DNA of 64,000 nucleotides, from the NCBI RefSeq assembly GCF_004786035.1, contig NZ_CP035088.1:4128001-4192000 (forward strand), read 5' to 3'. Under the pieces are notes generated by a model, which searched no databases, had not been told where the DNA came from, and saw nothing but the letters and a program-made list of their open reading frames with translations. The stretch comes from Pseudomonas viciae (GTDB taxonomy: Bacteria; Pseudomonadota; Gammaproteobacteria; Pseudomonadales; Pseudomonadaceae). A program made the translations under genes and the position numbers. This document shows, in pieces, positions 10,594-27,092 of the stretch. Each line of letters starts with the position of its first letter. Position 1 is the first letter of the stretch.

Positions 10594-11301
10594 ATGTCCG
10601 AACCCACTGCAGTGCTGCTGGCACACGCCGATGGCCGCCTCGCCTCAACGCCATTCACCTCAGGTTCGTTGGCGGCCAACGATCCGTTCAAGCGGCTCAT
10701 CGCTTATGCCGGAACGGACGGCATGGCTGCCGGCGTGGTCCGGGCAAGCGGTCGGTTCAGCGCAACCGAATACCCCTTCAGCGAAACGATCGTGGTGCAT
10801 GCCGGAAGCGTGACACTGCGCAACCAGGGGCAGGCGCTGCAGCTCAAGCCCGGTGAAAGCGCGGTGATCGGTCGGGGGACGGCGCTTGAGGTCGAGGCGC
10901 AAGCGGAGTCTGTCTGGGCCTTCTGCGCCGATACCCAACTTGTTGCGGCAAACGCTCCTGGGTTGACTGCGCTGACGGCGCACACCCTGCTCTCACCCTC
11001 CGCACCACCCGACGACGAGATACTGCTCAGTCCGCCGCCGCAATGTCGCTCGCACAATCTGTTTGTCGAGGAAGCGAGCAACCTGCGCATCGGCATCTGG
11101 GATTCGACGCCCTATACCCGCAAGTCACGGCCGCACAAACTGCATGAGCTGATGCACCTGCTCGAAGGCAGCGTCACCCTGCAAGCTGCCGATGGCACCG
11201 ACCTGACGGTCAACACTGGCGACACCGTATTCGTGCCCCTGCATGCGCCGTGTGCCTGGAAGAGCAGCGTCTATGTGCGCAAGGTCTACGTCGTCAAATA
11301 A
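10594..11301 (+). CDS. Bicupin protein (cupin_3/DUF861 type)
   Basis: A 235-residue protein with two cupin folds. The first (about 45-110) carries ETIVVHAGSVTLRNQGQALQ and LKPGESAVIGRG. The second (about 160-232) carries HKLHELMHLLEGSVTLQ and VNTGDTVFVPLHAPCAWKS. The second fold keeps the His/Glu set (HELMHLLEG) of metal-binding cupins, while the first has fewer ligands and may be structural. EutQ/DUF861-like cupins often bind or isomerise small amino or sugar acids; no reaction is assigned. It follows the GNAT gene by 42 bp and ends the plus-strand run. Confidence 0.75.
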   Translation: MSEPTAVLLAHADGRLASTPFTSGSLAANDPFKRLIAYAGTDGMAAGVVRASGRFSATEYPFSETIVVHAGSVTLRNQGQALQLKPGESAVIGRGTALEVEAQAESVWAFCADTQLVAANAPGLTALTAHTLLSPSAPPDDEILLSPPPQCRSHNLFVEEASNLRIGIWDSTPYTRKSRPHKLHELMHLLEGSVTLQAADGTDLTVNTGDTVFVPLHAPCAWKSSVYVRKVYVVK

Positions 11302-11515: not shown

Positions 11516-11542
11516 AAAAAAAAGCCCGCAGTGTGCGCGGGC
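11516..11542 (-). terminator. Rho-independent terminator of the catabolic operon
   Basis: Read on the minus strand, GCCCGC and GCGGGC (11537-11542 with 11524-11529) form a GC-only stem with a short loop, followed by eight T residues (11516-11523). It lies 28 bp past the stop of the tartrate-dehydrogenase-like gene and so marks the end of the long minus-strand operon. Confidence 0.88.
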
Positions 11543-11570
11543 AAGAAGTGTCGCAGGTTAGTGTCAGGCC

Positions 11571-12650
11571 TCAAAGCGCTGCAGCGATTGCTTTGCCCAC
11601 ATCCTGGGTCGAGCCTTTCCCACCCAGGTCGGGGGTAATAGGCCCTTCAGCGATGACCCGCTCGATGGCCTTGAGAATCCCATCATGGGCCGCGCGATAA
11701 CGCTCATCGCCGTTACCCAGAAAGTCCAGCATCAATGCACCGGACCAGATCATCGCAATCGGGTTGGCGATGTTCTGCCCATAGATATCCGGCGCCGAGC
11801 CATGCACAGGTTCGAACAACGACGGGAAGCGCCGCAGCGGATCGAGGTTGGCCGACGGGGCGATGCCGATGGTGCCGGCGCAGGCCGGGCCCAGGTCGGA
11901 GAGGATGTCGCCGAACAGGTTCGATGCCACCACCACATCAAAACGATCCGGCTGCAAAACGAAACGAGCACACAGAATGTCGATGTGTTGCTTGTCCCAT
12001 TGCACATCCGGGTACTGCTCGGCCATCAACGCCGTGCGCTCGTCCCAGTACGGCATGCTGATGGAGATGCCGTTGGATTTGGTCGCCGCCGTCAGGCGTT
12101 TGCGCGGCCGGGTCTGGGCCAGGTCGAAGGCGAACTTGAGGATCCGGTCGACCCCTCGGCGGGTGAACACCGACTCCTGGAGCACGAACTCATGCTCGGT
12201 GCCTTCGAACATCTTGCCGCCGACCGAGGAATATTCGCCCTCGGTGTTTTCGCGGATCACCACAAAATCGATGTCCCCCGCTTCGCGCCCAGCCAAGGGG
12301 CACGGCACGCCCGGAAACAGGCGCACCGGACGGATGTTCACGTACTGGTCGAAGTCGCGGCGGAACTTGAGCAGCGAGCCCCACAGGGAGATGTGATCCG
12401 GGACCTTGTCCGGCCAGCCCACGGCACCGAAGTAGATCGCGTCGAAGCCCTTGAGTTGCTCGAACCAGTCAGCGGGCATCATCTGCCCGTGCTCCAGGTA
12501 GTAATCGCAGTGGGCCCAATCAAGCACTTCGATACTCAGCGACAACTGCCATTTTTTCGCGGCCTGCTCCAGTACCCGCAGTCCTTCAGGCAGGACCTCT
12601 TTACCGATGCCATCGCCAGCAATCGCGGCGATTCGAAATGGTTTGCTCAT
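11571..12650 (-). CDS. Tartrate dehydrogenase/D-malate dehydrogenase-like decarboxylating enzyme
   Basis: A 359-residue member of the isocitrate/isopropylmalate dehydrogenase family. Seen are IAAIAGDGIGKEV at the start, LLKFRRDFDQYVNIRP (substrate arginines), ENTEGEYSS, the catalytic Lys in AATKSNGI and metal aspartates in NLFGDILSDLG. FEPVHGSAPDI and NPIAMIWSGALMLDFLG give the NAD side. The pattern fits tartrate dehydrogenase/decarboxylase or D-malate dehydrogenase (TtuC/DmlA) rather than LeuB. Such enzymes oxidise and decarboxylate beta-hydroxyacids with NAD+ and a divalent metal. ATG 12650 is chosen over the upstream TTG. It is the last gene before the operon terminator. Confidence 0.85.
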   Translation of the reverse strand: MSKPFRIAAIAGDGIGKEVLPEGLRVLEQAAKKWQLSLSIEVLDWAHCDYYLEHGQMMPADWFEQLKGFDAIYFGAVGWPDKVPDHISLWGSLLKFRRDFDQYVNIRPVRLFPGVPCPLAGREAGDIDFVVIRENTEGEYSSVGGKMFEGTEHEFVLQESVFTRRGVDRILKFAFDLAQTRPRKRLTAATKSNGISISMPYWDERTALMAEQYPDVQWDKQHIDILCARFVLQPDRFDVVVASNLFGDILSDLGPACAGTIGIAPSANLDPLRRFPSLFEPVHGSAPDIYGQNIANPIAMIWSGALMLDFLGNGDERYRAAHDGILKAIERVIAEGPITPDLGGKGSTQDVGKAIAAAL

Positions 12651-12690
12651 CAAGTGTGGCTCCCGAATGTCTGTTCAAACGCTGGCCGCA

Positions 12691-14148
12691 TCACAGCCCA
12701 CCGATGTGGAAGGCTTTGACTTCAAGGTATTCATCCAGGCCGTATTTGCTGCCTTCACGGCCCAGGCCCGACTGTTTGATGCCGCCGAACGGGGCGACTT
12801 CCATGGAAATCAGCCCAGTATTGAGACCGACCATGCCGAACTCCAGCGCCTCGCCGAAGCGCCATGAACGGCGCAGGTCCTGGGTGAAGTAATAGGCCCC
12901 CAGGCCATACGGCGTGGCATTGGCCAGGGCCAAGGCCTCCTCTTCGGTAGTAAAGCGCATCAGCGGGGCAACCGGGCCGAAGGTTTCTTCGTTGGCCAGC
13001 AACATCCCGGCGTGAGCCTCACCCAGCACCGTTGGCTCGACGAACTGACTGTCGCCCTCGGGAACAGCGCCACAGAGCAGACGCGCGCCCTGACTCAACG
13101 CATCGTCGATGTGCCGGGCGACTTTGTTCACCGCAGCCAGGTTGATCAGCGGACCGATCGTTACCCCTGCCTCCAGGCCATTGCCAACCTTGAGCTTGCC
13201 CACCTCCTCCACCAGGCGCTCGGCAAAGCGTTGGTAGATGCCGTCCTGCACCAGGATGCGGTTGGCGCAGACGCAGGTCTGGCCGGCGTTGCGAAACTTG
13301 CTGAGCATGATCCCGGCCACCGCCTGCTCCAGGTCTGCGTCGTCGAAGACAATGAACGGCGCGTTGCCGCCCAGTTCCAGGCTCAAGCGCTTGATGTGTT
13401 CGGCGCTCTGGCGCATCAGCAGCCGCCCGACTGCAGTGGAGCCAGTAAAGGAAATCTTGCGCACCGTCGGGTTGCCGGTCAGCTCTTCGCCGATGCCGGC
13501 CGGCAGGCCAGTGACAACGTTGAATACCCCGGCCGGAATCCCGACCCGCTCGGCCAGCACCGCCAGCGCCAGGGCCGACAAAGGCGTCAGGTCCGAGGGT
13601 TTGACGATGACCGGGCAGCCCGCCGCCAAGGCCGGGGCGCATTTGCGGGTGATCATCGCATTGGGGAAATTCCACGGGGTAATCGCCGCGCAAACACCCA
13701 CCGGTTGCTTGAGCGTGAGCAGGCGACGGTCGCCGCTGGGCGCCGGTATGGTTTCGCCATAAACCCGGCGGGCTTCTTCGGCAAACCATTTGGCGAAACC
13801 GGCTCCATAGCGGATTTCGCCTTTGGCTTCGTTCAGCGGCTTGCCCTGTTCGCAGGTCATGATCAGCGCCAGGTCGTCAAGGTTGTCCATCATGGCCTGG
13901 TACCAACGCTCCAGCAGCGCCGCACGTTCCGCTGCCGGCCGCGCACGCCAGGCCGGCCAGACGCGCTCGGCCGCCTCGATGGCGCGCCGGGTTTCCACAC
14001 CTTGCATGGCCGGCACCCGGGCCAGCACTTCACCTGTCGCCGGGTCGATGACATCCAGGGTGGCCGCATTGTCGGCACCGATCCACTGACCGTCGACATA
14101 AGCGAGTTCTGCCAACAGGCTGGGGTCTTTCAATTGATTCTTGAGCAT
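12691..14148 (-). CDS. NAD(P)+-dependent succinate-semialdehyde dehydrogenase family protein
   Basis: A 485-residue aldehyde dehydrogenase with ITPWNFPNAMITRK (cofactor-binding region), FTGSTAVGR, the catalytic Glu in LELGGNAPF and Cys in GQTCVCANR. FGGIKQSGLGREGSKYG closes the C-terminus, as in GabD/DavD enzymes that oxidise succinate or glutarate semialdehyde in the cytosol. It sits between the ArgE-type hydrolase and the decarboxylating dehydrogenase in the operon, so its aldehyde probably arises from oxidative deamination by the upstream flavoenzymes (inference). Exact chain-length specificity is not readable. Confidence 0.87.
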   Translation of the reverse strand: MLKNQLKDPSLLAELAYVDGQWIGADNAATLDVIDPATGEVLARVPAMQGVETRRAIEAAERVWPAWRARPAAERAALLERWYQAMMDNLDDLALIMTCEQGKPLNEAKGEIRYGAGFAKWFAEEARRVYGETIPAPSGDRRLLTLKQPVGVCAAITPWNFPNAMITRKCAPALAAGCPVIVKPSDLTPLSALALAVLAERVGIPAGVFNVVTGLPAGIGEELTGNPTVRKISFTGSTAVGRLLMRQSAEHIKRLSLELGGNAPFIVFDDADLEQAVAGIMLSKFRNAGQTCVCANRILVQDGIYQRFAERLVEEVGKLKVGNGLEAGVTIGPLINLAAVNKVARHIDDALSQGARLLCGAVPEGDSQFVEPTVLGEAHAGMLLANEETFGPVAPLMRFTTEEEALALANATPYGLGAYYFTQDLRRSWRFGEALEFGMVGLNTGLISMEVAPFGGIKQSGLGREGSKYGLDEYLEVKAFHIGGL

Positions 14149-14335
14149 GGTCGCGTCCTGTTCCGAGGTGATTCCAGTCTAAGGAGATGCCACGGGGCAG
14201 GATGCTGAAAGCGGGTTTTGGGCAGTGTTGGATGCTGAAATTTGCGGGGAAGCAGCAGGCTCTACCGAGGCACCAGGCTAAACACCGAAGCTTTGCTCCC
14301 ACAGGAGTACTCCCACATTTTGTTCTGTGTATGGC

Positions 14336-15493
14336 TTAGATTTTCAAGGAGCCCAGCACCCCTTCCAAAAACCGCTCCCCCGCGTCCATCTGGCTGATTT
14401 CGATGAACTCATCCGGCTTGTGCGCCTGTTCGATGGAGCCCGGGCCGCAGACCACGACCGGCACGTCCAGGCGCTGTTTGAACAAACCACCTTCGGTGCC
14501 AAAGGAGACTTTCGCGGTGCCGGTGTCCGGGGCGGCGAAGTTTTTCAGGAAGCGCACGGCTTCGATACTCGGGTGGGTATCGAGGCCCGGGTAGACGTTC
14601 AAGGTTTCGATTTCGATGTCCGCCACGCTAGAGAGCTTTTTCGCCTCGCGCACGATCACTTCGGCATGCTCGCGCAACTGTTCCAGAAACAAGTCCAGGT
14701 TATCGGCCGGCAAGTTGCGCACTTCGAAATCCAGGGTGCACAGGTTCGGTACGATGTTCAGCGCCTTGCCGCCGACAATCTGCCCGACGTGCACGGTGCT
14801 GTAGGGCACGTCGTAATCCGCATCCTGGGCGCCCTGCGCCTGCAATTGCTGCTGGCTCTGGCGCAACGCCGCGATGAAGTCGCAGGCGACGTGAATCGCA
14901 TTGACCGAGCGCGGCGCCAACGACGAGTGCGCCTCCAGGCCGCGACAGTAAGTGCGATAAGAACCCTTGCCCTTGTGGCCAAGCACGAACTGCATGTTGG
15001 TCGGCTCGCCAATCACGCACAGAAACGGCCGCACCGGCGCCAGGTGCAGCACGTCGAGCAAACGCCGCACCCCCACGCAACCGATCTCTTCATCATGGGA
15101 GAGCGCCAGTTGCAGTGGCCGGCTCAAGGCATGGTCGGCGGCATCGAGCATGGCGTCGATGGCCAACGCAATGAACCCTTTCATGTCACAGCTGCCACGC
15201 CCATAGACCCGCCCGTCTCGCACGGTCGCCTGGAACGCCGGGACGGTCCAGGCCTGCCCCGCCGCCGGCACCACGTCGGTATGCCCGGACAGCAGAATCC
15301 CCGGCAGCTCCCGGGGCCCGGTGCTGGCGAACAGGTTGGCCTTCTTGCCGCTTTCATCCTTGACGATCAGCGACTCGATGCCCTTGCTCAGCAGCAATTC
15401 GCGCACGTAGTCGATCAGGGCCAGGTTCGATTCTGATGAGACCGTTTCAAACGCCAGCAGGCGTTCGAAAATGGCTAACACGCGGGGTTTCAT
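14336..15493 (-). CDS. argE: ArgE-type N-acyl-amino-acid deacylase (acetylornithine deacetylase family)
   Basis: A 385-residue M20 metallohydrolase. The metal-ligand set is visible: His in LLSGHTDVVP, Asp in GRGSCDMKGF, the general base and ligand pair in SHDEEIGCVG, Glu in VIGEPTNM, and the last His in QAHKPDEFI. The dimerisation lid lies around HKGKGSYRT. ArgE enzymes remove the N-acyl group of ornithine or other amino acids. In fluorescent Pseudomonas, arginine synthesis normally recycles acetyl groups through ArgJ, so a second argE-like gene inside a catabolic operon points to an N-acylated or amide-linked catabolic substrate (inference). Its start overlaps the preceding FAD gene by 4 bp. 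Confidence 0.83.
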   Translation of the reverse strand: MKPRVLAIFERLLAFETVSSESNLALIDYVRELLLSKGIESLIVKDESGKKANLFASTGPRELPGILLSGHTDVVPAAGQAWTVPAFQATVRDGRVYGRGSCDMKGFIALAIDAMLDAADHALSRPLQLALSHDEEIGCVGVRRLLDVLHLAPVRPFLCVIGEPTNMQFVLGHKGKGSYRTYCRGLEAHSSLAPRSVNAIHVACDFIAALRQSQQQLQAQGAQDADYDVPYSTVHVGQIVGGKALNIVPNLCTLDFEVRNLPADNLDLFLEQLREHAEVIVREAKKLSSVADIEIETLNVYPGLDTHPSIEAVRFLKNFAAPDTGTAKVSFGTEGGLFKQRLDVPVVVCGPGSIEQAHKPDEFIEISQMDAGERFLEGVLGSLKI

Positions 15494-16644
15494 GAGGCCT
15501 TGCTCCGTTGCTCGACTGAAAGGGCGAACCGGCGGATGGAAAACGGCTCGATCGACGTGCTGGTGCTGCCGGTGCTGATCAGCTCAGCCATGACGTCGCC
15601 GACGCCCGGGCCAAGCTGGAAGCCATGCCCGCAGAAACCGAACGCATAGTACAGCCCATCGACGTTGCCACTGGGGCCCATCACCGGCAGGGAATCGGGC
15701 AGGTAGCCTTCGATGCCGCTCCACACGCGGATGATGTTCAGGTTACCGACACCCGGCAGCAGGCGACGCATCTGGTCGAGCTGGTTGAGGATGCTGCGCG
15801 GCTCGACATAGGCCCGGCGGTTGAGCATGTCCGGTTTGCTGCGATAGCCGCCACCGATGACGATGTTGCCCCGGGGGATCTGGCGGAAATAGATCACCTC
15901 TTCGGGGATCTTGGTGTACACCCCGATCACCGTCGGCAAGGCATAGGGCACCGGCTCGGTGACGGCCATTTGCGGTCCGTTGGTCTCCAGTGGCACCGGC
16001 TCGCCGAACTGTGCCGAGAGCTTCTGGCCCCAGGCACCCGCGGTAATCAGCAACTGAGCGGCACTGAACTGGCGCCCGTCGGTGGTGCTGATGCTGAAGC
16101 CGTCACCCATTTTCTGCACTTCGGCCACTTCGGTGCGTTCCTCGATGCGTGCGCCGAGGCGCCGGGCCGCCCGGGCAAACGCCGGGGCCGCCAGGCGCGG
16201 GTTGGCGTGACCGTCGTGCGGAGCATAAGAGCCGCCCTTGACGTCCTTGCCGAGGAACGGAAAACGCGCGTGCAGTTCGCTACCGCGATAGATCTGCAAA
16301 TCCAGTTGCGCCGCTTCCGGGGCCGCCGCGTAGGCCTCGAGCTCGGGGATTTCGTCTTCGCGATAACACACGCGCATGTGCCCGCTGGCAATGAACTCCA
16401 GGTCGTCATCGATCAGCTCCGGCAGGCGTTTCCACAACGCCCAGGAGCGGTTCGCCAGCTCCAGTTGCCCGAGGAAACGCCCCTGGCGCCGCACGTTGCC
16501 GAAGTTCACACCGCTGGCATACTGACCGATCTGGTCACGCTCGAGCAGGATCACCGACTGCCCCCGTTGACGCAGGAAAAACGCCGCCGCCGAGCCCATC
16601 AGGCCACCGCCAACAATCACCACATCGGCTTTTTCCAGCGTCAT
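15490..16644 (-). CDS. FAD-dependent amine/opine dehydrogenase, beta-type subunit (copy 1)
   Basis: A 384-residue DAO-family flavoprotein with an N-terminal Rossmann motif (VVIVGGGLMGSAAAFF, about 8-23), the FAD-adenosine acid in ILLERD, and C-terminal YAFGFCGHGFQLGPGVGD. It resembles OoxB/NoxB of opine catabolism, the beta subunit of D-hydroxyproline dehydrogenase and the sarcosine oxidase beta chain. Together with the two genes just upstream it would form a heterotrimer oxidising a C-N bond of a secondary or N-substituted amino acid. It overlaps its neighbours on both sides by 4 bp, which suggests translational coupling. A near-identical paralogue lies at 28709-29890. Confidence 0.85.
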   Translation of the reverse strand: MTLEKADVVIVGGGLMGSAAAFFLRQRGQSVILLERDQIGQYASGVNFGNVRRQGRFLGQLELANRSWALWKRLPELIDDDLEFIASGHMRVCYREDEIPELEAYAAAPEAAQLDLQIYRGSELHARFPFLGKDVKGGSYAPHDGHANPRLAAPAFARAARRLGARIEERTEVAEVQKMGDGFSISTTDGRQFSAAQLLITAGAWGQKLSAQFGEPVPLETNGPQMAVTEPVPYALPTVIGVYTKIPEEVIYFRQIPRGNIVIGGGYRSKPDMLNRRAYVEPRSILNQLDQMRRLLPGVGNLNIIRVWSGIEGYLPDSLPVMGPSGNVDGLYYAFGFCGHGFQLGPGVGDVMAELISTGSTSTSIEPFSIRRFALSVEQRSKAS

Positions 16645-18032
16645 GGCGCTACCTCCCGGGTGAGCATCGAAAGAGGTTTCACTGGCGCCTGACCGCGCTG
16701 GCGCCCCACCTCCTGCACCTGGACACCGGCCGCTGCGGCAATCACTTCGGCCCCGGCCTGGGAGCAGTAACGCCCCTGGCAGCGACCCATGCCGACCCGA
16801 CTGAAAGCCTTGGCCCGGTTGACTTCACAGGCGCCCTTTTCGCTGACCGCGCGGCGCAGTTCGCCAGCGCTGATCATCTCGCAGCGGCAAACAATGGCCT
16901 CGTCCGGCAAGGCCTTGGCTTGCGCAGCGGGCCAGGGAAATGCCTGGGCCAAACCAAGACGAAAATCATCCATGACCTTGAGTGCCTGGCGCTGCTCGGC
17001 GACCTGTGCGGCGTTCACTGGCTGTTGCAGATCGCCCAACAGCGCCAGGGCGACCAGGCGCCCGGCGTGCTCGGCCGCATCGGCGCCACGAATTTTCGAT
17101 CCATCCCCCGCGGCATACACGCCGCTGACGGAGGTCCGACCTTCTTCATCGGTGTCCAGCCACCATTGGCTGGACGCCTCGTCGAAGCGCATGCGACAGC
17201 CCGCCAGGTCGGCCAGTTGGGTTTCCGGACGCAAGTGATAACCCAGCGCCACCGCATCACAATCCACTGTCAACGTCTCCCCTCTCGCGGTGCGTACCCG
17301 TACGCCACTGACGCCGGTGATCGCCTCACCGAGCACTTGCAGGGGCGAAATACCCAAGTGCACCGGGATCTTCGCCCGATACAACTGGGCCAACAGTTTC
17401 ATGCCGGTGAACAGCAATCCCGGCCGCGCCATGAGTTTGGGCAAGGCTTTGATGCGCTGGCTCAGCGGCGAAGTATCCAACACCGCGGCCACACTGGCCC
17501 CGGCTTTTACGTATTGACTGGCGACGAGGTACAACAACGGCCCGCTGCCCATGAACACCACGCGGTGGCCGATGGAGACCGCCTGGGCCTTGAGCGCAAT
17601 CTGCGCCCCGCCGAGGCTGTAGGTGCCGCCCAGTTGCCAGCCATCGATCGGCATCAGGCGGTCGGTGGCACCGGTGCAAAGAATCAGCGCGTCGTAATCC
17701 ACCGTCGAATGTTGGCCCTGGCTGACGCAGCACAACTGCCCCGGCGTCAGGTTCCACACCAGGGTGTCCGGGCGGTAGTCGATCTGTGGGCGCAGGCGAT
17801 CGAAGCTTTCGTGCAGGTCCCGGGCCTTGTCCGCCTCGGTGCCGTACAGCGTCGTGTAGGTGCGGGTGAACCCTTCAGGTTGACGCCGGTAGATCTGCCC
17901 GCCATCGCGTCGATTTTCGTCGATCAGGATCGGTTTGAAGCCGGCCGCCACCAAGGTCTGGGCACACCGGATGCCCGCCGGCCCGGCGCCTACGATGACG
18001 ACTCGATGTGTGTTCAACCGCGCAGTGGCCAT
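16641..18032 (-). CDS. FAD/NAD(P)-binding alpha-type subunit of amine/opine dehydrogenase (OoxA/HcnB-like)
   Basis: A 463-residue pyridine-nucleotide-disulphide-oxidoreductase-like protein: GAGPAG near 15-20, DENRRDGGQIYRR, a second GSGPL motif around 157 and AAGDG near 310. A C-terminal BFD-type [2Fe-2S] module has CRCE (about 380) and CQGRYC (about 428), i.e. a CxC...CxxxxC set. This architecture is shared by OoxA, the alpha subunit of D-hydroxyproline dehydrogenase and HcnB. It would pass electrons from the beta-chain flavin towards the respiratory chain. It overlaps the small ferredoxin-like gene by 19 bp and the beta gene by 4 bp. Confidence 0.85.
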   Translation of the reverse strand: MATARLNTHRVVIVGAGPAGIRCAQTLVAAGFKPILIDENRRDGGQIYRRQPEGFTRTYTTLYGTEADKARDLHESFDRLRPQIDYRPDTLVWNLTPGQLCCVSQGQHSTVDYDALILCTGATDRLMPIDGWQLGGTYSLGGAQIALKAQAVSIGHRVVFMGSGPLLYLVASQYVKAGASVAAVLDTSPLSQRIKALPKLMARPGLLFTGMKLLAQLYRAKIPVHLGISPLQVLGEAITGVSGVRVRTARGETLTVDCDAVALGYHLRPETQLADLAGCRMRFDEASSQWWLDTDEEGRTSVSGVYAAGDGSKIRGADAAEHAGRLVALALLGDLQQPVNAAQVAEQRQALKVMDDFRLGLAQAFPWPAAQAKALPDEAIVCRCEMISAGELRRAVSEKGACEVNRAKAFSRVGMGRCQGRYCSQAGAEVIAAAAGVQVQEVGRQRGQAPVKPLSMLTREVAP

Positions 18033-18322
18033 ATCGCCTCCGGTTGCCTGGTGATGATGTCCAGCCCTTCGCGCACTTCATTGGAGCAGGCACGCAAGCG
18101 CTCGCCGCTGCGGGTCCAGACCCAGCAGTCCTGGCAGGCACCCATCAGGCAGAAGCCGGCACGGCTGCCCGGATCGAATTCCGACTGGCGCAACGCCGGG
18201 CCCTGGGTCAGCAGCGCTACCATCAACGTGTCGCCCTGCAAGGCCTCGACCGGTACGCCATCCACTTTCAATTTGACGATGGGCCGGCCCTGTTCGGCCA
18301 GCCTCACGAAACGAGCGTTCAT
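18014..18322 (-). CDS. Small [2Fe-2S] gamma-type subunit (HcnA-like)
   Basis: A 102-residue ferredoxin-like protein with four cysteines spaced as in HcnA-type subunits (C58, C63, C66, C79). It is the third chain of the dye-linked amine dehydrogenase encoded with the alpha and beta genes downstream. It has no signal peptide, so the complex is cytosolic or peripheral to the inner membrane. Its start overlaps the end of the ATPase gene by 4 bp. That links enzyme and transporter synthesis and supports a shared substrate. Confidence 0.85.
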   Translation of the reverse strand: MNARFVRLAEQGRPIVKLKVDGVPVEALQGDTLMVALLTQGPALRQSEFDPGSRAGFCLMGACQDCWVWTRSGERLRACSNEVREGLDIITRQPEAIWPLRG

Positions 18323-20163
18323 GCGTAGGCTCCCACGATCATGCTGTTTGAATCCTGTTGGCTTTTGAGCAGCTCAGCGCTGTCGTGATGACAGAGCACT
18401 TCACTGCCGCCGTCGATGATTCGCCGAGGCGGCGCGCTGTGGTTGCACAGCCCATCGACCCGCACCGGGCAGCGGTTGAGAAAGGTGCACAGTTGCGGCA
18501 CATCGGCTTTCTCGCCCAACGCCGGCAGTGAGCCGCAAGTGGTGGCGCCGCATGTTTCCAGCCAGCCCTGGCGCAACTCCGGCACCGAATGGATCAACAG
18601 GTCGGTGTAGGGATGGAACGGTGCCTGGGCGAACGATTGCCGCGTGCCCGCCTGGACTTTGTGGCCGCTGTACATCACCACGATGTCGTCGCACAGCGCC
18701 CGCACCGTGGAGATGTCGTGGCTGATGAACAGGTAGGACACCCCCAGTTGCTGGCGCAGGTCACGCAGCAGTTCGAGAATCGCCGCGCCGACCACGGTAT
18801 CGAGGGCCGAGGTCACTTCATCGCACAAAATCAAATCCGGCTTGGCCGCCAGCGCCCGGGCCAGGTTGACCCGCTGCTTCTGCCCGCCGGAGAGTTCGCT
18901 CGGGCGGCGCTCGGCCATGTCCCGTGGCAGACGTACCAGGTCCAGCAACTCGCCAATACGCTCACGCAGCGCCGCGCCCTTGAGGCCGAAGTACATCTTC
19001 AGCGGCCGGCTCAGAATGGTGCTGATGTTGTGCATCGGGTTAAGCGCGGTGTCGGCGTTCTGGAACACCATTTGAATACGCCGGAACTGTTCATCGGTGC
19101 GCTCGGAAAGGCTGCCGCCCAGCGGCTGGCCATCGAAGGTCAGCCCGCCGACTGCCGGGGTCAGCAACCCCGCCACCACCCGCGCCAGGGTCGATTTACC
19201 CGAACCCGACTCGCCGATCACACCGATGGCCTGGCCCCGACGCACGGTCAGGTCGATGTCTTCCAGCACCCGGATCTGCGGCATGCCGTGCTGGTTCTTG
19301 TTGCCGTAGCCGGCAGTCAAACCCTGGATGGTCAGCAGCGGCGTGTCTTCGGCCACACCACAGGGCGGGCGAATCGTCGTGTCCGGTCGCGCCGCCGCCA
19401 ACAGGCTGCGGGTGTAGGCGTGGGCCGGGCCTTTGAGCAGCGGCGCAGTGGCGCTGTGTTCAAAGATCTGCCCGCCGTTGAGCACCACGATCTGGTCGGC
19501 CATCTGCGCAACGACGGCCAGGTCGTGGGAGACGTAGACCGCCGTCGCGCCTCGTTCACGGACCACGCGTTTGAAGGCGCGCAACACGTCGATCTGAGTG
19601 GTTACATCGAGGGCGGTGGTCGGCTCATCGAGCACCACCAGCAGCGGATCGCTGATCAGCGCCATGGCCGCCATCACCCGCTGCAATTGTCCGCCGGACA
19701 CTTGATGGGGATAGCGCCGGCCGATGCGCTCGGGGTTTGGCAGCGCCAGGTCGCGAAACAACTCGATGGCCTTGGCTTCAAGCGTGGCCCGGCTACCCAG
19801 GCCATGGATCAATGCGCCCTCCACCACCTGGTCAATCAGTCGTTTTGCCGGGTTGAACGCTGCGGCCGCGCTTTGAGCGATGTAGGACACACGGTTGCCG
19901 CGCAGGCCTTGCAACTCGCCCTCGCTCAACGCCAGCATGTCGTGCTCGCCGATCTGCACCACGCCGCCGGCCAGGCGACAACCACGTCGGGCATAGCCGA
20001 GCAGTGCCAGGGCGATGGTGGTCTTGCCGGAGCCGGACTCGCCAATCAGCGCCAGCACCTCACCTTTTTCCAGGGAGAAGCTCACGCCCTTGACGATCTC
20101 CACTTCGCCGCGCTCGCCACCGGCGACTACGCGCAGGTTCTCGACTCGGATCAATTCGCTCAT
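18319..20163 (-). CDS. Fused double ATPase of a peptide-type ABC importer (GsiA-like)
   Basis: A 614-residue protein with two complete nucleotide-binding domains. Domain 1 (about 1-260) has Walker [10 protein letters not shown], signature VSGGQLQRV and Walker [10 protein letters not shown]. Domain 2 (about 275-600) has [18 protein letters not shown] and [12 protein letters not shown]-terminal oligopeptide-transporter extension carries [14 protein letters not shown]. In Dpp and Opp systems the two ATPases are separate; fusion is typical of the glutathione importer GsiA and some opine or peptide importers. It powers the two permeases encoded immediately upstream. Confidence 0.92.
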
Positions 20164-20164
20164 A

Positions 20165-21040
20165 TCAATGGCCTCCCGTACGTCGATTGCGCCGCGAAGA
20201 CAGGCGGTCGATAAACAGATTGACGCCGATGGTCAGGGTGCCAATGGCCAGGGCTGGAATCACGATGGCCGGCGCGCCCTGGTTGAGGCCGCCGATGTTT
20301 TCGCGCACCAGGGAACCCAGGTCGGCGTCCGGCGGTTGCACACCCAGGCCGAGGAAACTCATGCCACTGAGCAGCAGTACGATGAAACCGAAGCGCAAGC
20401 CCAAGTCAGCCAGCACCGGGTTGAGCATGTTCGGCAGAATTTCCACGCAAGCGATGTACAGCCGGCGTTCGCCACGGGTGCGGGCCACTTGCACGTATTC
20501 CAGGGCCTCGATGTTCACCGCCATGCTGCGAGCGATACGGAACGCACCCGGTGTGTAGCTCAACACCGCCGTACACACCAATAAAGTCACCGACGAACCA
20601 AACGCCGAGACCATGATCAGCGCCAGCATCTTGCTCGGGATCGAAATGAAAGCGTCCATCAAGCGACTGATCAATTCATCCAGCCACTTCGGTGAAACCA
20701 CCGACAGCAGTGCGCAACCGGTCCCAAGCCCACTGGACAGGACCGCGGCCACCAGCGCCAGGCCCACGGTGAACTGTGCGCCGACCAGAATGCGGCTCAG
20801 CATGTCACGGCCCAGGTAATCGGTACCCAGCGGGTGAGCGGCGCTGAAGCTGCCGAAAACATTGTCGGAGACCACTTCCCCCACCGGGTGCGGCGCCAGC
20901 CATGGGCCGAAGATCGCCACCAGCAACCAGAGTGCACACATCACCGCGCCGACCAGTCCAAGCCAGGACGAGCCGTGAGCGTCTTTGCCCAACGCCAGAG
21001 CGACCGCCGCGGTCGGGGGTTTCACAATGAGTTTGTTCAT
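20165..21040 (-). CDS. ABC peptide-type permease (DppC/GsiD-like)
   Basis: A 291-residue inner-membrane permease with a cytosolic N-terminal arm and about six membrane segments. It has the DppC-type periplasmic start HPLGTDYLGRDMLSRIL (about 75-91) and the coupling EAA loop EYVQVARTRGERRLYI. ATG 21040 is chosen because it overlaps the stop of the upstream permease as ATGA and because the membrane arm follows. The open frame extends further upstream, but that part is out-of-frame shadow of the other permease. It pairs with the next gene to form the channel. Confidence 0.9.
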   Translation of the reverse strand: MNKLIVKPPTAAVALALGKDAHGSSWLGLVGAVMCALWLLVAIFGPWLAPHPVGEVVSDNVFGSFSAAHPLGTDYLGRDMLSRILVGAQFTVGLALVAAVLSSGLGTGCALLSVVSPKWLDELISRLMDAFISIPSKMLALIMVSAFGSSVTLLVCTAVLSYTPGAFRIARSMAVNIEALEYVQVARTRGERRLYIACVEILPNMLNPVLADLGLRFGFIVLLLSGMSFLGLGVQPPDADLGSLVRENIGGLNQGAPAIVIPALAIGTLTIGVNLFIDRLSSRRNRRTGGH

Positions 21041-21993
21041 TGATTTCTCAGCCTCGGGTTGGAAAGGATCGCGCACAGATCGGCAATCAGCACCAACGTC
21101 AGGTACGCCGTGCAAAACAGCATGGTGCAGGCCTGGACCAGTGCCATGTCGCGGTTCGTCACCGCATCGACCATCAGACTGGCGATGCCGGGATAGTTGA
21201 AAATCGTCTCGACAATCACCACCCCACCCAGCAGGTAGGAAAGGCTCAAGGCGATGGCGTTGGCGATCGGTCCGATGGCGTTGGGCAAGGCATGGCGCAG
21301 GACCACTCGCACCGGACTCACGCCTTTGAGACGAGCCATTTCCACGTAAGGGCTGTCCAACTGATCGATCACCGCCGCCCGGGTCATGCGCGCCATTTGC
21401 GCGACGATCACGCAGCACAGCGTCATGACCGGCAAGGCATAGGTGCGCATGAATTGCAGCGGTGAAGTGATCTCACTGGAATAGGACAACGCGGAAAGCC
21501 AGCCCAGGTTCACTGCGAAGATCAGCACCGCCAGGGTGGCGACCAGAAATTCCGGCACTGCCACCATCATCAGGGTAAAAAAACTCATGAAGCCGTCGAT
21601 GCGACCACCACGCCCCATCGCCGAACCAATGCCCAGAATCAATGCCACTGGCACCGATACCAGCGCCGTGGCGGCCGCCAGCATCAGCGTGTTGGGCACC
21701 CTGCCCGCCATCAGCTCGGTGACTGGCACGGCATTGGATACCGACACGCCCATGTCGCCGCTGAGCAGACTCGTCAACCAGTGCAGGTAACGCAGCACAC
21801 CAGGCTGATCGAGGCCCATTTTCGCCCGCAGGGCCGCCACCTGTTCCGGCGTGGCGAACTGTCCAAGGGACTGTTGCGCCGCGTCTCCCGGCAACACCGC
21901 CGTGATGGCGAACACCACCATCGAGACGATCAACAGCGTCACGATCGCGGCGCCTACGCGCCGGCCGATCAACCAGAGTGTGCTGCTATTCAT
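21037..21993 (-). CDS. ABC peptide-type permease (DppB/GsiC-like)
   Basis: A 318-residue permease with the DppB hallmark first helix (WLIGRRVGAAIVTLLIVSMV) and early periplasmic domain including LPGDAAQQSLG. EQVAALRAKMGLDQPGVLRYLHWL and GDMGVSV follow. The EAA loop is SPYVEMARLKGVSPVRVVLRHALPN near residue 225. Start ATG 21993 follows an AGGAGGGCAG ribosome site. The spacing to the binding-protein gene is 45 bp, and the stop overlaps the second permease. Confidence 0.9.
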   Translation of the reverse strand: MNSSTLWLIGRRVGAAIVTLLIVSMVVFAITAVLPGDAAQQSLGQFATPEQVAALRAKMGLDQPGVLRYLHWLTSLLSGDMGVSVSNAVPVTELMAGRVPNTLMLAAATALVSVPVALILGIGSAMGRGGRIDGFMSFFTLMMVAVPEFLVATLAVLIFAVNLGWLSALSYSSEITSPLQFMRTYALPVMTLCCVIVAQMARMTRAAVIDQLDSPYVEMARLKGVSPVRVVLRHALPNAIGPIANAIALSLSYLLGGVVIVETIFNYPGIASLMVDAVTNRDMALVQACTMLFCTAYLTLVLIADLCAILSNPRLRNQ

Positions 21994-22038
21994 CAATCTG
22001 CCCTCCTGCCCTGCCACCCAGCGAATACCCGACGTTCA

Positions 22039-23682
22039 TCAGGCGTCCAGCCAGACTTGCTCGGAGAACATGTAGCCCATGAAACCGCCCAGCGGATTGG
22101 TGCCATAGCCTTTGACGCGCTGGTCGACGCCGTCGATGTTGCTGATGAACACCGGAATGCCGATACCGCTGTGGTCATGCACCAGGGTTTGCATGTCGGC
22201 GTACATCTTGCCGCGCTTGGCCTCGTCGGTTTCACCTCGGGCCTGGATCAACAGCTGGTCGAACTGTTCATTTTTCCAGCCGGACTCGTTCCATGGCGCC
22301 GTGGACTGGAAGAACTGCGAAAACAGCATGTCGGCGTTGGGCCGTGGGTTGATGTTGCCAAAGCTCACTGGATGCTTGGCCCAGTGATTGGACCAGTAGC
22401 CATCGCTCGGCAAACGGTTGACGTTGAGCTTGAGCCCGGCCTCCTTGGCCGATTGCTGCAGCAATACGGCGACGTCCACCGAACCGGTGGCGGCCGGCGA
22501 GCACATCACCGGCATGGTGATGTTTTCCATACCGGCCTTCTTCAGCAGGAAGCGCGCCTTTTCCGGATCGTAGGTCCGTTGCGGCAGATCGGCATTGTAG
22601 AAACGTGCGCCGGGTGCGATCGGATGGTCGTTGCCGACCCTGGCGAAGCCACGGAAAATCGCCGACTTGACTTGCTCCCGGTCCAGCAGCAGCTTCATGG
22701 CCTCGGTGAATTCCGGGCTTTTGCCGGGCATCTGGTCCTGGCGAATGATCAGGTCGGTGTAGTTACCCGACGGTGAATCCACGACACGGTGGGTGCTGCT
22801 GTCCTTGATGCGCGTGGTCGAACGCGGGTTGACCTCGTTGATGATCTGCACATCGCCGGAGAGCAGCGCATTGACCCGTGACGGTTCGTCGGCGATGCCG
22901 ATGAACTCGATCTCGTCCAGGTAAGGCAAGCCCGGTTTCCAGTAGTTGGTGTTGCGCGCGCCGATGGAACGCACCCCTGGTTTGAATTCCTTGACCTTGA
23001 ACGGACCGGTACCGATGCCCTGGCTGAAATCGCTGGTGCCTTCGGGCACGATCAACAGGTGGGAAACCGCCAGAATCGATGGCAGCTCGGCGTTCGGGCC
23101 GCTCAACGTTATCTGCACTTCATGGGTGCCGTTGGCCTTGACCTCGGCAAACTGCGACGCCAGCGGCAGGACTTTGGAGCCGGTAATCGGGTCCTTGTGC
23201 CGCAGCAGGGAAAACACCACGTCAGCGGCGGTCAGTCCCTTGCCGTTGTGGAAGGTCACTTCTTTGCGCAGGGTAATCACCCAAAGCGTGGCATCGGTGG
23301 TGTCGATGCGTTCAGCCAGCTCCAGTTGCGGCACCATGTGATTGTCGAAGCGGGTCAAGCCGTTGTAGAACATGTAGTGGCGCACATAGTCCGTGGACGA
23401 CGAGCCTTTGGCCGGGTCCAGGGTATCGGCGGTGGAACTGGAGATGCCCGCCACCCGAATACGCCCGCCGGGCTTGCCTTTGCCAGGGCTCGCGGTGTCA
23501 TCGGCCAGCAGTTTTCCGGCGGTGCCGAACAGGCTGCCGGCACCGGCGGCGGCCACGCCTGCCAACCCGAGCATTTGCAATGCATGGCGGCGAGACATGC
23601 CGCGGTTGAGCCCTTCGAAAACACGCAGACTTTCTGTACCGGTGATCAACTGGTCTTTGATGCCGTTTTTATTGTCACTCAT
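22039..23682 (-). CDS. ABC substrate-binding protein, family 5 (SBP_bac_5), Tat-exported
   Basis: A 547-residue periplasmic binding protein of the dipeptide/opine class. The N-terminus carries a twin-arginine signal (SRRHALQMLGLAG at about 30-42) with a long charged leader before it, so it is exported folded through Tat. The mature part has the SBP_bac_5 pattern: TLDPAKGSSSTDYV, LRKEVTFHNGKGLTAADVVFSL and GTGPFKVKEFKPG. Members bind oligopeptides, glutathione, opines or nickel chelates. As the first transport gene of the operon it defines the import specificity, which the sequence does not reveal. Confidence 0.9.
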   Translation of the reverse strand: MSDNKNGIKDQLITGTESLRVFEGLNRGMSRRHALQMLGLAGVAAAGAGSLFGTAGKLLADDTASPGKGKPGGRIRVAGISSSTADTLDPAKGSSSTDYVRHYMFYNGLTRFDNHMVPQLELAERIDTTDATLWVITLRKEVTFHNGKGLTAADVVFSLLRHKDPITGSKVLPLASQFAEVKANGTHEVQITLSGPNAELPSILAVSHLLIVPEGTSDFSQGIGTGPFKVKEFKPGVRSIGARNTNYWKPGLPYLDEIEFIGIADEPSRVNALLSGDVQIINEVNPRSTTRIKDSSTHRVVDSPSGNYTDLIIRQDQMPGKSPEFTEAMKLLLDREQVKSAIFRGFARVGNDHPIAPGARFYNADLPQRTYDPEKARFLLKKAGMENITMPVMCSPAATGSVDVAVLLQQSAKEAGLKLNVNRLPSDGYWSNHWAKHPVSFGNINPRPNADMLFSQFFQSTAPWNESGWKNEQFDQLLIQARGETDEAKRGKMYADMQTLVHDHSGIGIPVFISNIDGVDQRVKGYGTNPLGGFMGYMFSEQVWLDA

Positions 23683-23767
23683 GTCAGTTCTACCTTTCGG
23701 AAAATGATAGGGCCCGATTGCGCACGATTAACGCAACGTGTTGAAACGCCAAACAACACCATATAAA

Positions 23768-25042
23768 TCAGTGTAGGTAGTCCTGCAGGCGGTAATACGC
23801 GCCTACCAGCGGCAGGAACCAGGGTTTGCCGAAATGTCCGGGGATGGCCGGCCAATCGAGCTCGCGCCAAGGGTTGGCCTCGACCTTGCCGTTCATGACC
23901 TCAGCCATGACCTGCCCCATGTGCACCGACATCTGCACTCCGTGGCCGCTGTAGCCCATGGAGTGATAAACCCCTCCATGCTGGCCGGCCCGGGGTAAAC
24001 GGTCGGATGTCATGTCCACCAAACCGCCCCAGCAATAGTCGATCCGGGTGTTCGCCAACTGCGGGAACATCTGCACCATCGCCGCTTGCAGCACCTTGCC
24101 GCTCTTGGCGTCGGAAACGCTGTCGGACATGGCAAACCGCGCCCGACCGCCAAACAGCAGACGGTTGTCCGGCGTCAGGCGAAAATAGTTACCGATCATG
24201 CGGCTGGTGACATAAGAGCGGCGTGCCGGCAGCAAGCTGTCGATCAGCGCCTGGGGCAGCACTTCGGTGGCGACTACAAAACTGCCCACCGGCACGATCC
24301 GCCGCCGATACCAGCCCAGGCCACCTTGCTGAGACGCGCCGGTCGCCAGCAGGATCTGCTTGGCGTGCAACGCGCCTTTGCTGGTGTTGACTTGATAGCC
24401 GCCGGCGCGGGCCTTCCAGTCCCTCACCTCGACGCCTTGAAAGATCAACGCACCGTGACGGGCCGCCGCCTCGGCCAGGCCGACACCGAAGCGCCCGACA
24501 TGCATCTGCACGCCATTGCGCTGCAGCAGGCCGCCGTGGAACTGGGCCGAGTTGACTTCCGCACGCGTCTCTTGGGCAGAGAGCAACTCGACCTCGGCAT
24601 CGACCTCCTTGCGAATCAATTCACAGGTGCGCGCCAGTCCCTCGTAGTGCATGGGTTTGGCGGCGAGTTTGAGTTTGCCGTTACGCTTGAGATCGCAGGC
24701 AATCCCCTCCTGCTCCACCAGCGAGACCACGCTCTGCACGGCACTTTCATAGGCCTGGTAATACGCACGCGCCTTGTCTGCGCCAAGACTGGCGGTGAGC
24801 GCCGCGTAATCCTGGGCCACGCCGGTACTGCAATGCCCACCGTTGCGCCCCGACGCCTCGCCAATCACCCGACCGGCTTCCAGCACCGCCACACTCGCCC
24901 CCTTCAAGGCCAGGGCCCGGGCCGCCGCCAGGCCGGTGAAGCCGCCACCGACGATGGCGACATCGACCTGCCCGGGCAACCCGCCGAGCTGGGCACCGGT
25001 GAAGGCCGGTGCGGTATCGAGCCAATAGGACTCACTGCCCAT
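23768..25042 (-). CDS. PuuB/OrdL-like FAD-dependent oxidoreductase
   Basis: A 424-residue DAO-family flavoenzyme with VAIVGGGFTGLAAARALALKG (about 28-48), the acid in VAVLEAGRVIGEASGRNGGH and C-terminal MGYSGHGVQMSVHMGQVMAEV. The pattern fits gamma-glutamylputrescine oxidoreductase (PuuB) and related OrdL proteins, which oxidise a primary amine of an N-substituted polyamine to an aldehyde plus NH3 and H2O2. It differs clearly from the two beta-type flavoproteins of this region. With the SSADH-like enzyme it would complete an amine-to-acid route (inference). An 85-bp gap precedes the binding-protein gene. Confidence 0.85.
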   Translation of the reverse strand: MGSESYWLDTAPAFTGAQLGGLPGQVDVAIVGGGFTGLAAARALALKGASVAVLEAGRVIGEASGRNGGHCSTGVAQDYAALTASLGADKARAYYQAYESAVQSVVSLVEQEGIACDLKRNGKLKLAAKPMHYEGLARTCELIRKEVDAEVELLSAQETRAEVNSAQFHGGLLQRNGVQMHVGRFGVGLAEAAARHGALIFQGVEVRDWKARAGGYQVNTSKGALHAKQILLATGASQQGGLGWYRRRIVPVGSFVVATEVLPQALIDSLLPARRSYVTSRMIGNYFRLTPDNRLLFGGRARFAMSDSVSDAKSGKVLQAAMVQMFPQLANTRIDYCWGGLVDMTSDRLPRAGQHGGVYHSMGYSGHGVQMSVHMGQVMAEVMNGKVEANPWRELDWPAIPGHFGKPWFLPLVGAYYRLQDYLH

Positions 25043-25077
25043 GTCTAACCCCTTTCACCTTGAAGAGTGCGCTCAAC

Positions 25078-25746
25078 TCAGAGCCCGACCAAACCGGCCA
25101 AACCGCCGATGTCCGGGATCTGGTGGTAGCCGTACACGGCATTGGCTGGTTGTTCGTGACCACGGGCCACGAAGGCTTTGTTCTTGATTTTCATGTCGTG
25201 GGCCGGCATGAGGTCGTAGCGGAAGCTCGACGATACATGCAGCACATCCTCCGGCCCGCAGCCGAGGTTATCGAGCATGAATTCGAAGGCCGCCAGACGC
25301 GGCTTGTAGGCCTGGGCCTGCTGGGCCGTGAAGACCTTATGGAAAGGCGCGCCGAGCTTGTCGACGTTGGACATGATCTGCTCGTCCATCGCGTTGGAAA
25401 AAATCACCAGGGGAATCTTGTCGGCAATTTTCGACAGACCCGCCGGCACATCGGCGTGGGGGCCCCAGCTTGGAACGGCGTCGTAATAGAGCTGTCCTTC
25501 GCCCCGGTACTCGACACCCCAACGCTTGCAGACCCGCATCAGGGAGGTCTTGATGATTTCATCATAGGGCCGCCAGTCACCCATCACCTGATCCAGGCGA
25601 TAAGCGGAGAAATCCTTGACGAACTGGTCCATCTGCCCGGCATCGACACGGTCGGCGAACAGCTCGCGCGTCATGTTGCCCATCTGGAAATTGGTCAACG
25701 TGCCGTAGCAGTCGAAGGTGATGTACTTGGGTCGAAGAAAGCTCAT
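25078..25746 (-). CDS. Haloacid dehalogenase, type II-like
   Basis: A 222-residue HAD protein with nucleophile Asp in ITFDCYGTLTNF (about residue 11), motif II in VIFSNAMD, Lys in QAYKPRLAAF and the acidic motif SSSFRYDLMPAHDMKIK. It belongs to the type II L-2-haloacid dehalogenase family. In catabolic operons these often act on carbon substrates that are not halogenated, so the name should not be taken literally. The start at ATG 25746 is preferred because the longer frame upstream has no family residues. It is the promoter-proximal gene of the operon, 35 bp before the PuuB-like gene. Confidence 0.8.
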   Translation of the reverse strand: MSFLRPKYITFDCYGTLTNFQMGNMTRELFADRVDAGQMDQFVKDFSAYRLDQVMGDWRPYDEIIKTSLMRVCKRWGVEYRGEGQLYYDAVPSWGPHADVPAGLSKIADKIPLVIFSNAMDEQIMSNVDKLGAPFHKVFTAQQAQAYKPRLAAFEFMLDNLGCGPEDVLHVSSSFRYDLMPAHDMKIKNKAFVARGHEQPANAVYGYHQIPDIGGLAGLVGL

Positions 25747-26207: not shown

Positions 26208-27092
26208 TCAGGCTTTCAGTTCAACCTCAAGAAAGCTCACCAACGCCTGTACCCGCGCACTGCGCAGTTTGCGCGAGGGCACCAGCAGGTTGATCGGGGC
26301 GCTATCGAATTGCCAATCGGCGAGCACCCGCACCAAGCGGCCAGCGGCGATGGCTTTGCTGACGTCCCATTGCGAACGCAGCACCAGCCCCAGGCCCTGT
26401 TCTGCCCAGCGGCGGGCCACGCTGCCGTCGTTGCTCAATAAAGCCGGTTTGATCCGCAGGGTTTTGCGCCCTTGCTCATTACGCAGATGCCACAGCGTGA
26501 CATCTTCATCGTTTTCACGAATACAAATGCAGCGGTGCTCGGCGAGTTGCTCAGGCGATGACGGCGTACCGTACTGCTCCAGGTAGGCAGGGCTCGCGCA
26601 GAGCCATCGGTGGTTCTGCGTCAGGGGCCGGGCGACCCACAGGCTGTCGCTGAGGGTGCCGATGTGAATCACCGCATCGCTGTCATGGCGATCGGGCCAG
26701 GGCGTTTCCCGCAGATCCAGATGCAGGCACAACTGCGGATGCAACCTGGCAAAACGGGCCAGCAGAGGCGCGATGTGTTGTCGCCCATAGCCAAACGGCG
26801 CCGCCAACCTGAGGGTTCCGGCCAACTGATCGTCCTGCTGCTTGAACGACTCGGGAAGCGCCTCCAGCTGTTCCAGCAACAGCGCACTCTGCCGGGAAAA
26901 ACGCTCGCCGTCGGCGGTGAGGCTCAGGCGCCGGGCGTCGCGGTTGGCCAAGGTCAGGCCCAGCAGCGTCTCCAGTTTGCGCAGGCGCATGGACAGCGCC
27001 GGCGGCGAGACATTAAGTGCCCTGGCGGCGGCGCTCAACGACTCGGAGCGCGCCAGCGTCACAGCCATGCGCAGGTCTTCGATGGTAATCAT
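26208..27092 (-). CDS. LysR-family regulator
   Basis: A 294-residue LysR regulator. The N-terminal winged HTH (MAVTLARSESLSAAARALNVSPPALSMRLRKLE, about 9-41) is followed by a substrate-binding domain (about 90-290). The GTLRLAAPFGYGRQHIAPLLARF style is typical of the CrgA/AaeR-like group. It is divergently transcribed from the PLP enzyme-RidA-FAD operon with a 95-bp shared control region, so that operon is its probable target. It might also act on the nearby transporter operon; this is inference. Confidence 0.88.
   Translation of the reverse strand: MITIEDLRMAVTLARSESLSAAARALNVSPPALSMRLRKLETLLGLTLANRDARRLSLTADGERFSRQSALLLEQLEALPESFKQQDDQLAGTLRLAAPFGYGRQHIAPLLARFARLHPQLCLHLDLRETPWPDRHDSDAVIHIGTLSDSLWVARPLTQNHRWLCASPAYLEQYGTPSSPEQLAEHRCICIRENDEDVTLWHLRNEQGRKTLRIKPALLSNDGSVARRWAEQGLGLVLRSQWDVSKAIAAGRLVRVLADWQFDSAPINLLVPSRKLRSARVQALVSFLEVELKA

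Follow-up and report, generated by a model that had tools for sequence, protein, structure and literature searches.

What does the twelve-gene operon at 11571-25746 on the minus strand of a Pseudomonas viciae DNA stretch import and break down? The stretch (64,000 nucleotides from assembly GCF_004786035.1, contig NZ_CP035088.1) is called the window here, and its numbering is used for the operon and its flanks. The operon encodes an ABC-type importer with a solute-binding protein (SBP), DAO-family flavoenzymes, a HAD type II hydrolase, a succinic semialdehyde dehydrogenase (SSADH)-type enzyme and TtuC, a tartrate/D-malate dehydrogenase. Computation establishes the genes, their families, their synteny and co-occurrence, and their kinship to enzymes of azetidine metabolism. 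The locus is very probably a real, conserved and apparently undescribed catabolic operon for an N-substituted C4 amino-acid compound. As a tentative answer from sequence comparison, we propose that it imports and dismantles an azetidine-containing aminocarboxylate chelator, most likely nicotianamine and/or phytosiderophores of the deoxymugineic-acid type.

Conservation and composition of the operon

The operon had been described in a first-pass annotation, made from the sequence alone, as twelve minus-strand genes, and all twelve are open reading frames. The families are also as named there: SBP_bac_5, two BPD permeases, an ATPase with two ABC domains, Fer2_4, Pyr_redox_2/Fer2_BFD, two DAO proteins, M20, aldehyde dehydrogenase, Iso_dh and HAD type II. 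Its expectation of import and oxidative breakdown of an apparently N-substituted amino acid is supported, and no description of the system was found in the literature passages available to us.

The HAD gene has a match (E 1e-10) in 53 of 149 Pseudomonas genomes, P. viciae included, and a match of at least 70% identity in 31 of the 149, at 38 places. All 37 such places outside the window lie within 35 regions of up to 20 kb, which contain two further places of 51-53% identity. Of these 35 loci, which were chosen by their HAD, 30 contain HAD, puuB and sbp together, more than chance would give. The 30 core loci also carry permB (29), the ATPase (29), argE (28), alpha (25), ssadh (25), cupin (24), gnat (22), ghrA (17), ttuC (16) and gabT (6).

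A second set, the named loci, comprises the best 80 of at least 589 and leans to near relatives; 79 were counted. They span Pseudomonas, a Vibrio, Burkholderiales, Rhizobiaceae, a Litchfieldella and others, and 65 hold HAD, puuB and sbp. Among the 65 are 49 with alpha, 50 with gnat, 30 with an aldehyde dehydrogenase (cluster c9) and 28 with argE. Many flanks are cut at 10 kb, so gene absences are upper bounds, and reading frames in compared loci were chosen by length and GC content at third codon positions, with no gene caller. The permC gene is found in 29 of the 35 Pseudomonas regions and 67 of the 79 named loci. The HAD and PuuB-like pair is present in 31 of 35 and 71 of 79, and the two are neighbors in most. 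By their names, many of the hosts belong to bacteria that live in soil or on plants, which we count in favor of a plant compound as the substrate.

The HAD and the SBP also co-occur across 398 proteobacterial genomes, P. viciae included. The HAD (limit E 1e-70) is present in 28. The SBP threshold (1e-130) is passed by 35, of which 25 scoring above 700 bits were counted as orthologous, a limit set after scoring, where the scores drop from 702 to 492 bits. Both are found in 24 genomes, the SBP only in one (a genome of 1890 contigs), the HAD only in four and neither in 369 (Fisher p 3e-33, relatedness ignored). In all 24 double genomes a HAD and an SBP lie on the same contig, 0.9-10.6 kb apart, with the nearest pair picked by hand in multi-copy genomes. 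The HAD is also found outside the operon, in some loci next to genes for a kinase and a transaminase-like protein; its pairing with the PuuB-like protein is thus strong but not absolute.

The importer differs in one respect from its initial description. Identification of the ATPase with GsiA was rejected, because it scores 343.5 bits against the GsiA model PRK10261, below the NCBI cut-off of 1077. In line with the Tat-type signal first read for the SBP, a loose twin-arginine-like pattern occurs in 62 of 64 SBP orthologues. The SBP is the best match in its genome at 956 bits, the next scoring 187.

The FAD heterotrimer, which the first-pass annotation had placed at the heart of the system, was rejected as its defining feature: alpha is absent from 5 of the 30 Pseudomonas core loci and 16 of the 65 named core loci, some of which have cut flanks. 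Another DAO protein (cluster c18) occurs in 9 of these 21 alpha-less loci, and alpha and c18 stand together in only 2 of the 65 and none of the 30. This gene content suggests that the c18 protein replaces the trimer in some loci, a point that the cut flanks weaken.

The closest paralogous trimer of the same genome (L169, 6750-9665) shares 52% identity with the alpha, 53% with the Fer2 and 45% with the beta subunit. By eye, its neighbors are an ABC importer of the polyamine type and what may be an IclR regulator. Elsewhere in the genome (L171, 7607-11142), a separate, apparently D-hydroxyproline-type flavoprotein set lies beside a gene that we take, from its sequence, to be of the proline-racemase family. 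This set is about 31% identical to alpha and about 25% to beta, and orthology of the operon trimer with D-hydroxyproline dehydrogenase was therefore rejected, as had been anticipated. As for the opine oxidases, from which the system was likewise said to differ, alpha is 35-38% identical to two annotated OoxA proteins, and no annotated OoxB, NoxA or NoxB occurs among the records listed (the 40 best and 60 spread over 1384 beta records, and 60 spread over 561 alpha records).

The HAD hydrolase and a proposed route to D-malate

The HAD is the most telling gene of the operon. Its best solved matches are 8hp5-7 and 3smv/8ywo/8yvw, at 71-77 bits, and all others score 45 or less. The structure records name 3smv L-azetidine-2-carboxylate hydrolase and describe 8hp7 as trapped with (2R)-4-amino-2-hydroxybutanoic acid; from this name and this ligand, we infer that 8hp5-7 are azetidine hydrolases. 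The nucleophile motif of the window HAD, FDCYGT, lacks the second acidic residue that is characteristic of HAD phosphatases. The nucleophile Asp and the Lys, the residues mutated in 8hp6 and 8hp7, align in the window HAD and are invariant in 14 of 14 aligned HADs. This pair is common to HAD type II enzymes in general. In a 40-row tree without an outgroup, the window HAD forms its own clade. A further, uncharacterized set, group X (L130-L136, L138-L142, L145, L148, L149), is about 30-33% identical to both the window HAD and the azetidine hydrolase, and BLAST finds an adjoining LysR-like gene in at least L132, L134, L140 and L149.

Clusters in Rhizobiaceae carry a second HAD (c31), which is 38.5% identical to the azetidine hydrolase and joins four azetidine hydrolases at 100/99 support in the same tree. 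It is found in six named loci (L113, L117, L119, L120, L128, L129) and on plasmids of S. meliloti, R. etli and R. bangladeshense; a less strict count, 9 of 79, may contain cross-matches. L117, L119, L128 and the three plasmid loci combine c31 with homologues of sbp, HAD, puuB, ssadh, ttuC, ghrA (about 54% identity) and argE (about 36%), and fewer of these stand beside it in L120 and L129.

The cluster's class III transaminase is 64-66% identical to the GabT proteins of three azetidine-hydrolase loci, 66% to one further GabT that is not known to lie at such a locus, and 48-49% to the putative housekeeping GabTs of four genomes, one from each. A tree of 22 rows (24 sequences less a duplicate of the window protein and one piece shorter than 250 amino acids, from L045) joins it with the azetidine-locus GabTs at a fork with 83/77 support, which is not a starred branch. 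One such locus, in Pseudomonas (L137, 3625-12035), encodes an azetidine hydrolase that matches the residues of 3smv at 99% identity. Beside it are genes for a GabT that shares 65% identity with the window transaminase, a class III transaminase with 52% identity to the rhizobial one, an SSADH-type enzyme, an EamA-like protein and, by eye, a GABA (gamma-aminobutyrate)-type permease.

TtuC scores 657 bits against 3flk, a solved tartrate dehydrogenase/decarboxylase presumably from P. putida, and 546.7 bits against TIGR02089 (cut-off 470.4). The SSADH-type enzyme exceeds the cut-off of TIGR01780 (679.6 versus 646.35) and falls below that of the equivalog PRK11241 (708.2 versus 828). The tartrate dehydrogenase closest to TtuC oxidatively decarboxylates D-malate, and the (2R) configuration of the 8hp7 ligand leads to D-malate. 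The SSADH-type enzyme and TtuC complete a stereochemically fitting route from (R)-4-amino-2-hydroxybutyrate through D-malate to pyruvate. Such a route explains a tartrate/D-malate dehydrogenase beside an SSADH-type enzyme, and a GABA route does not; the downstream path first proposed, which resembled that of GABA, is not supported, and TtuC and the transaminase point to 2-hydroxy-4-aminobutyrate and malate. An ectoine route was also rejected, because a Pfam scan of 30 window proteins found no M24 (ectoine hydrolase) domain.

Candidate substrates

Nicotianamine and the mugineic acids comprise three C4 units, two C-N bonds and a terminal azetidine ring, a chemistry that fits two DAO activities and one ring hydrolase. 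Phytosiderophores are released by grasses as a means of acquiring iron; nicotianamine is used by plants at large. In the proposed pathway, the Tat-type SBP and the ABC importer would take up the chelator. Two DAO activities, one PuuB-like and the other that of the heterotrimer or the DAO replacing it, would then cut the two internal C-N bonds and free C4 semialdehydes. Opening of the four-membered ring by the HAD, with inversion, would yield (R)-4-amino-2-hydroxybutyrate, either free or still N-substituted; the free form is the product expected from inverting hydrolysis of L-azetidine-2-carboxylate. The class III transaminase would convert this to malic semialdehyde, the SSADH-type enzyme would yield D-malate, and TtuC would decarboxylate the latter to pyruvate. 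GNAT and ArgE may acetylate, then deacetylate, toxic intermediates.

Phytosiderophores are readily degraded by soil microbes, and a chelator in which proline replaces the azetidine ring seemed to last longer in soil (PMC7946895). Mugineic acids are consumed by P. fluorescens SBW25, which we count in favor of a chelator substrate; the same source in 2021 called the taxa and genes for phytosiderophore metabolism unknown (PMC7786132). The product of azetidine hydrolase is stated to enter a GABA-type route (PMC8016842). Apart from the SBW25 candidates, no genes for phytosiderophore or nicotianamine breakdown are named in the available passages of PMC7786132, PMC8016842, PMC7946895, PMC12364333 and PMC8079746, and those of a root-exudate paper do not mention a dehalogenase, opine, dipeptide or semialdehyde. 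No report naming phytosiderophore-breakdown genes was found among the open-licence papers listed, and one may exist elsewhere. No bacterial genes for breakdown of azetidine chelators seem to be known so far. Microbial breakdown of phytosiderophores limits plant iron nutrition and chelator fertilizers. If the chelator proposal is true, the cluster would be a marker for chelator breakdown in microbiomes, and it would provide a pathway open to direct test, one step of which is the opening of a strained ring by an enzyme.

Several observations weigh against a chelator substrate. The window HAD is only 29% identical to the azetidine hydrolase and equally near to group X, and in fold comparison its Z score is tied with haloacid dehalogenases, as HAD type II enzymes tie with one another. 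The coexistence of two HADs in rhizobia may indicate a different function for the common one. The kinship of the SBP gives no clue to its ligand, and its AlphaFold model has a confidence score (pLDDT) of 57 and was not used. A PuuB-like DAO (28% identical) also occurs at L146, one of three azetidine-hydrolase loci, so a DAO alone is no proof of a chelator. GNAT, ArgE, GhrA and the cupin protein have no firm place in the route. According to the available passages of PMC7786132, the SBW25 genes raised by iron lack encode an OmpW-type porin, a PF03459 protein, a PF03992 monooxygenase and a hypothetical protein, which are not annotated as families of the operon, and P. putida strains that do not degrade phytosiderophores are cited there.

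Quite possibly, the substrate is a different N-substituted C4 amino acid without an azetidine ring, such as an opine or a diaminobutyrate- or hypusine-like compound, and the HAD performs another inverting hydrolysis with the same hydroxy-semialdehyde and D-malate end. The SBP is similar to the opine-binding AgaA and to peptide SBPs, and the structural tie of the HAD with haloacid dehalogenases is consistent with such a substrate. Accessory genes of some loci resemble hydroxyaspartate and hydroxyectoine enzymes (EutB/BhcB- and EutC/BhcD-like), below equivalog cut-offs, although the window's scanned proteins include no ectoine-type M24 hydrolase. This alternative leaves unexplained both the azetidine-hydrolase-clade enzyme of the rhizobial versions and the nearness of the transaminase to azetidine-locus enzymes.

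It is improbable that the operon serves to detoxify and assimilate azetidine-2-carboxylate in its free form, the pathway of Pseudomonas sp. A2C. The HAD and the transaminase are kin to that pathway, and the L146 flavoprotein shows that a PuuB-like DAO can occur at an azetidine-hydrolase locus. However, L137, with its nearly identical enzyme and its GABA-type permease, shows nothing that matches the DAO or alpha proteins over 16.6 kb, and the operon's near-constant dipeptide-type importer and PuuB-like protein and its usual second DAO would have no clear use on a free amino acid. By eye, L137 and L144 contain a large FAD/Fe-S dehydrogenase-like gene, which is 26-28% identical to a gene at the edge of two Rhizobium loci and is absent from the window.

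A cis-epoxysuccinate hydrolase feeding tartrate to TtuC is very improbable and was rejected as weak: the next-best solved relatives of the HAD are epoxide hydrolases described as acting on cis-epoxysuccinate, TtuC is a tartrate dehydrogenase and the neighboring LysR regulator is nearest to TtdR (below cut-off), but these relatives score 45 bits versus 77 for azetidine hydrolases, no TtuC was found at 14 of the 30 Pseudomonas core loci (some with cut flanks), and the importer, DAO enzymes, SSADH-type enzyme and transaminase would be left unexplained.

An extension of the chelator proposal is possible, if somewhat doubtful: a widespread cluster for catabolism of nicotianamine and mugineic acids, with a core that cuts C4 units and opens the ring, and swappable modules for the hydroxyls that distinguish deoxymugineic, mugineic and hydroxymugineic acids. 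Speculatively, the modules might be the D-serine-dehydratase-like protein, the EutB/BhcB-like and EutC/BhcD-like pair, and a kinase with a phospho-lyase-like transaminase (found in some loci and named by eye), in places with a second HAD; hydroxyaspartate-type genes would then serve hydroxylated members of the chelator family.

Two Rhizobium plasmid loci (L151, 7484-13809; L152, 8907-13810) contain threonate/tetronate genes within the cluster, annotated otnK, otnI, ltnD and aldolase in L152 and similarly in L151. L126 (1-4654) and L063 (1848-7825) hold a module of APH-type kinase, EutB/BhcB-like and EutC/BhcD-like genes, with a transaminase-like gene in L063 and a HAD paralogue in L126.

Gene layout and comparison with known systems

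The cluster runs past both ends of the twelve genes first proposed as its extent (Table 1), with the cupin, GNAT, ghrA, class III transaminase and Lrp genes downstream and LysR, dsd, a second DAO and an aldehyde dehydrogenase upstream. The overlaps between genes, first described as many and of 1-19 bp, exist at five junctions only: four bases at permB/permC, ATPase/fer2, alpha/daoB and daoB/argE, and 19 at fer2/alpha. Gaps separate HAD-puuB (35), puuB-sbp (85), sbp-permB (45), permC-ATPase (1), argE-ssadh (187) and ssadh-ttuC (40). The terminator-like hairpin stands where the operon was said to end, although its class is no commoner in the region than chance (15 found versus 15.5 expected). 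Between the transaminase and Lrp genes, a conserved gene (6219-6908; 218-229 amino acids) has no Pfam match at 1e-5. Repetitive extragenic palindrome-like inverted repeats gggagcgagcttgctcgc were seen by eye at 26075-26165, between the LysR and HAD genes.

Table 1. The operon and its recurrent neighbors in window coordinates (aa, amino acids).
Feature	Position	Strand	Basis
HAD type II hydrolase, 222 aa; proposed azetidine-ring hydrolase	25078..25746	-	TIGR01428 above cut-off; nearest solved 8hp5-7, 3smv
PuuB/AmaA-like DAO flavoprotein, 424 aa	23768..25042	-	PF01266; AmaA model 164 bits, below cut-off 600
SBP_bac_5 binding protein, twin-arginine-like signal	22039..23682	-	PF00496
Dpp/Nik-type permease B (permB)	21037..21993	-	PF00528, PF19300
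Dpp/Nik-type permease C (permC)	20165..21040	-	PF00528
ATPase, two ABC domains, 614 aa	18319..20163	-	PF00005 twice
[2Fe-2S] subunit of FAD heterotrimer (fer2)	18014..18322	-	PF13510 (Fer2_4)
Alpha subunit, Pyr_redox_2 with Fer2_BFD	16641..18032	-	PF07992, PF04324
Beta subunit (daoB), DAO flavoprotein	15490..16644	-	PF01266; nearest solved chain 1y56_B
ArgE-type M20 deacylase	14336..15493	-	NF005710, TIGR01892 above cut-off
SSADH-type aldehyde dehydrogenase; proposed malic semialdehyde dehydrogenase	12691..14148	-	TIGR01780 above cut-off
TtuC, tartrate/D-malate dehydrogenase (decarboxylating), Iso_dh	11571..12650	-	TIGR02089 above cut-off
Terminator-like hairpin, GC-rich, eight T	11542-11524	-	
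Two-cupin protein, recurrent partner	10594..11301	+	PF05899
Double GNAT acetyltransferase, recurrent partner	9694..10551	+	PF18014, PF00583
GhrA-like D-2-hydroxyacid dehydrogenase, recurrent partner	8543..9469	+	PF02826
Class III transaminase akin to those at azetidine-hydrolase loci	6963..8282	-	
Lrp/AsnC regulator, recurrent (cluster c11)	5685..6173	-	PF01037
LysR regulator, with dsd in some loci	26208..27092	-	nearest TtdR, below cut-off
dsd, D-serine-dehydratase/hydroxyaspartate-aldolase family	27188..28324	+	PF14031, PF01168
Second DAO, similar to beta subunit	28709..29890	+	
Aldehyde dehydrogenase, beside cluster in other loci too	30090..31553	+	

Four known systems invite comparison. 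Opine oxidases and D-hydroxyproline dehydrogenase share the Fer2, FAD/BFD and DAO architecture of the operon trimer, but the operon's alpha subunit is 35-38% identical to the two annotated OoxA proteins and about 31% to the hydroxyproline-type set of its own genome, and the trimer was not found in some versions of the cluster. The Puu pathway likewise uses a PuuB-like oxidase, an aldehyde dehydrogenase and a GabT-like transaminase; in contrast, the cluster has a D-malate end route, and no gamma-glutamyl enzyme was found among the 30 Pfam-scanned window proteins. Azetidine-2-carboxylate assimilation in Pseudomonas sp. A2C shares the broad HAD family, a transaminase of a neighboring clade and an SSADH-type enzyme, whereas the operon has another type of importer, a constant PuuB-like DAO, ArgE, TtuC and a HAD only 29% identical. 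Catabolism of ethylenediaminetetraacetate and iminodiacetate, which we compare from general knowledge and not by sequence, resembles the operon in using a peptide-type importer together with a DAO oxidase for an aminocarboxylate chelator.

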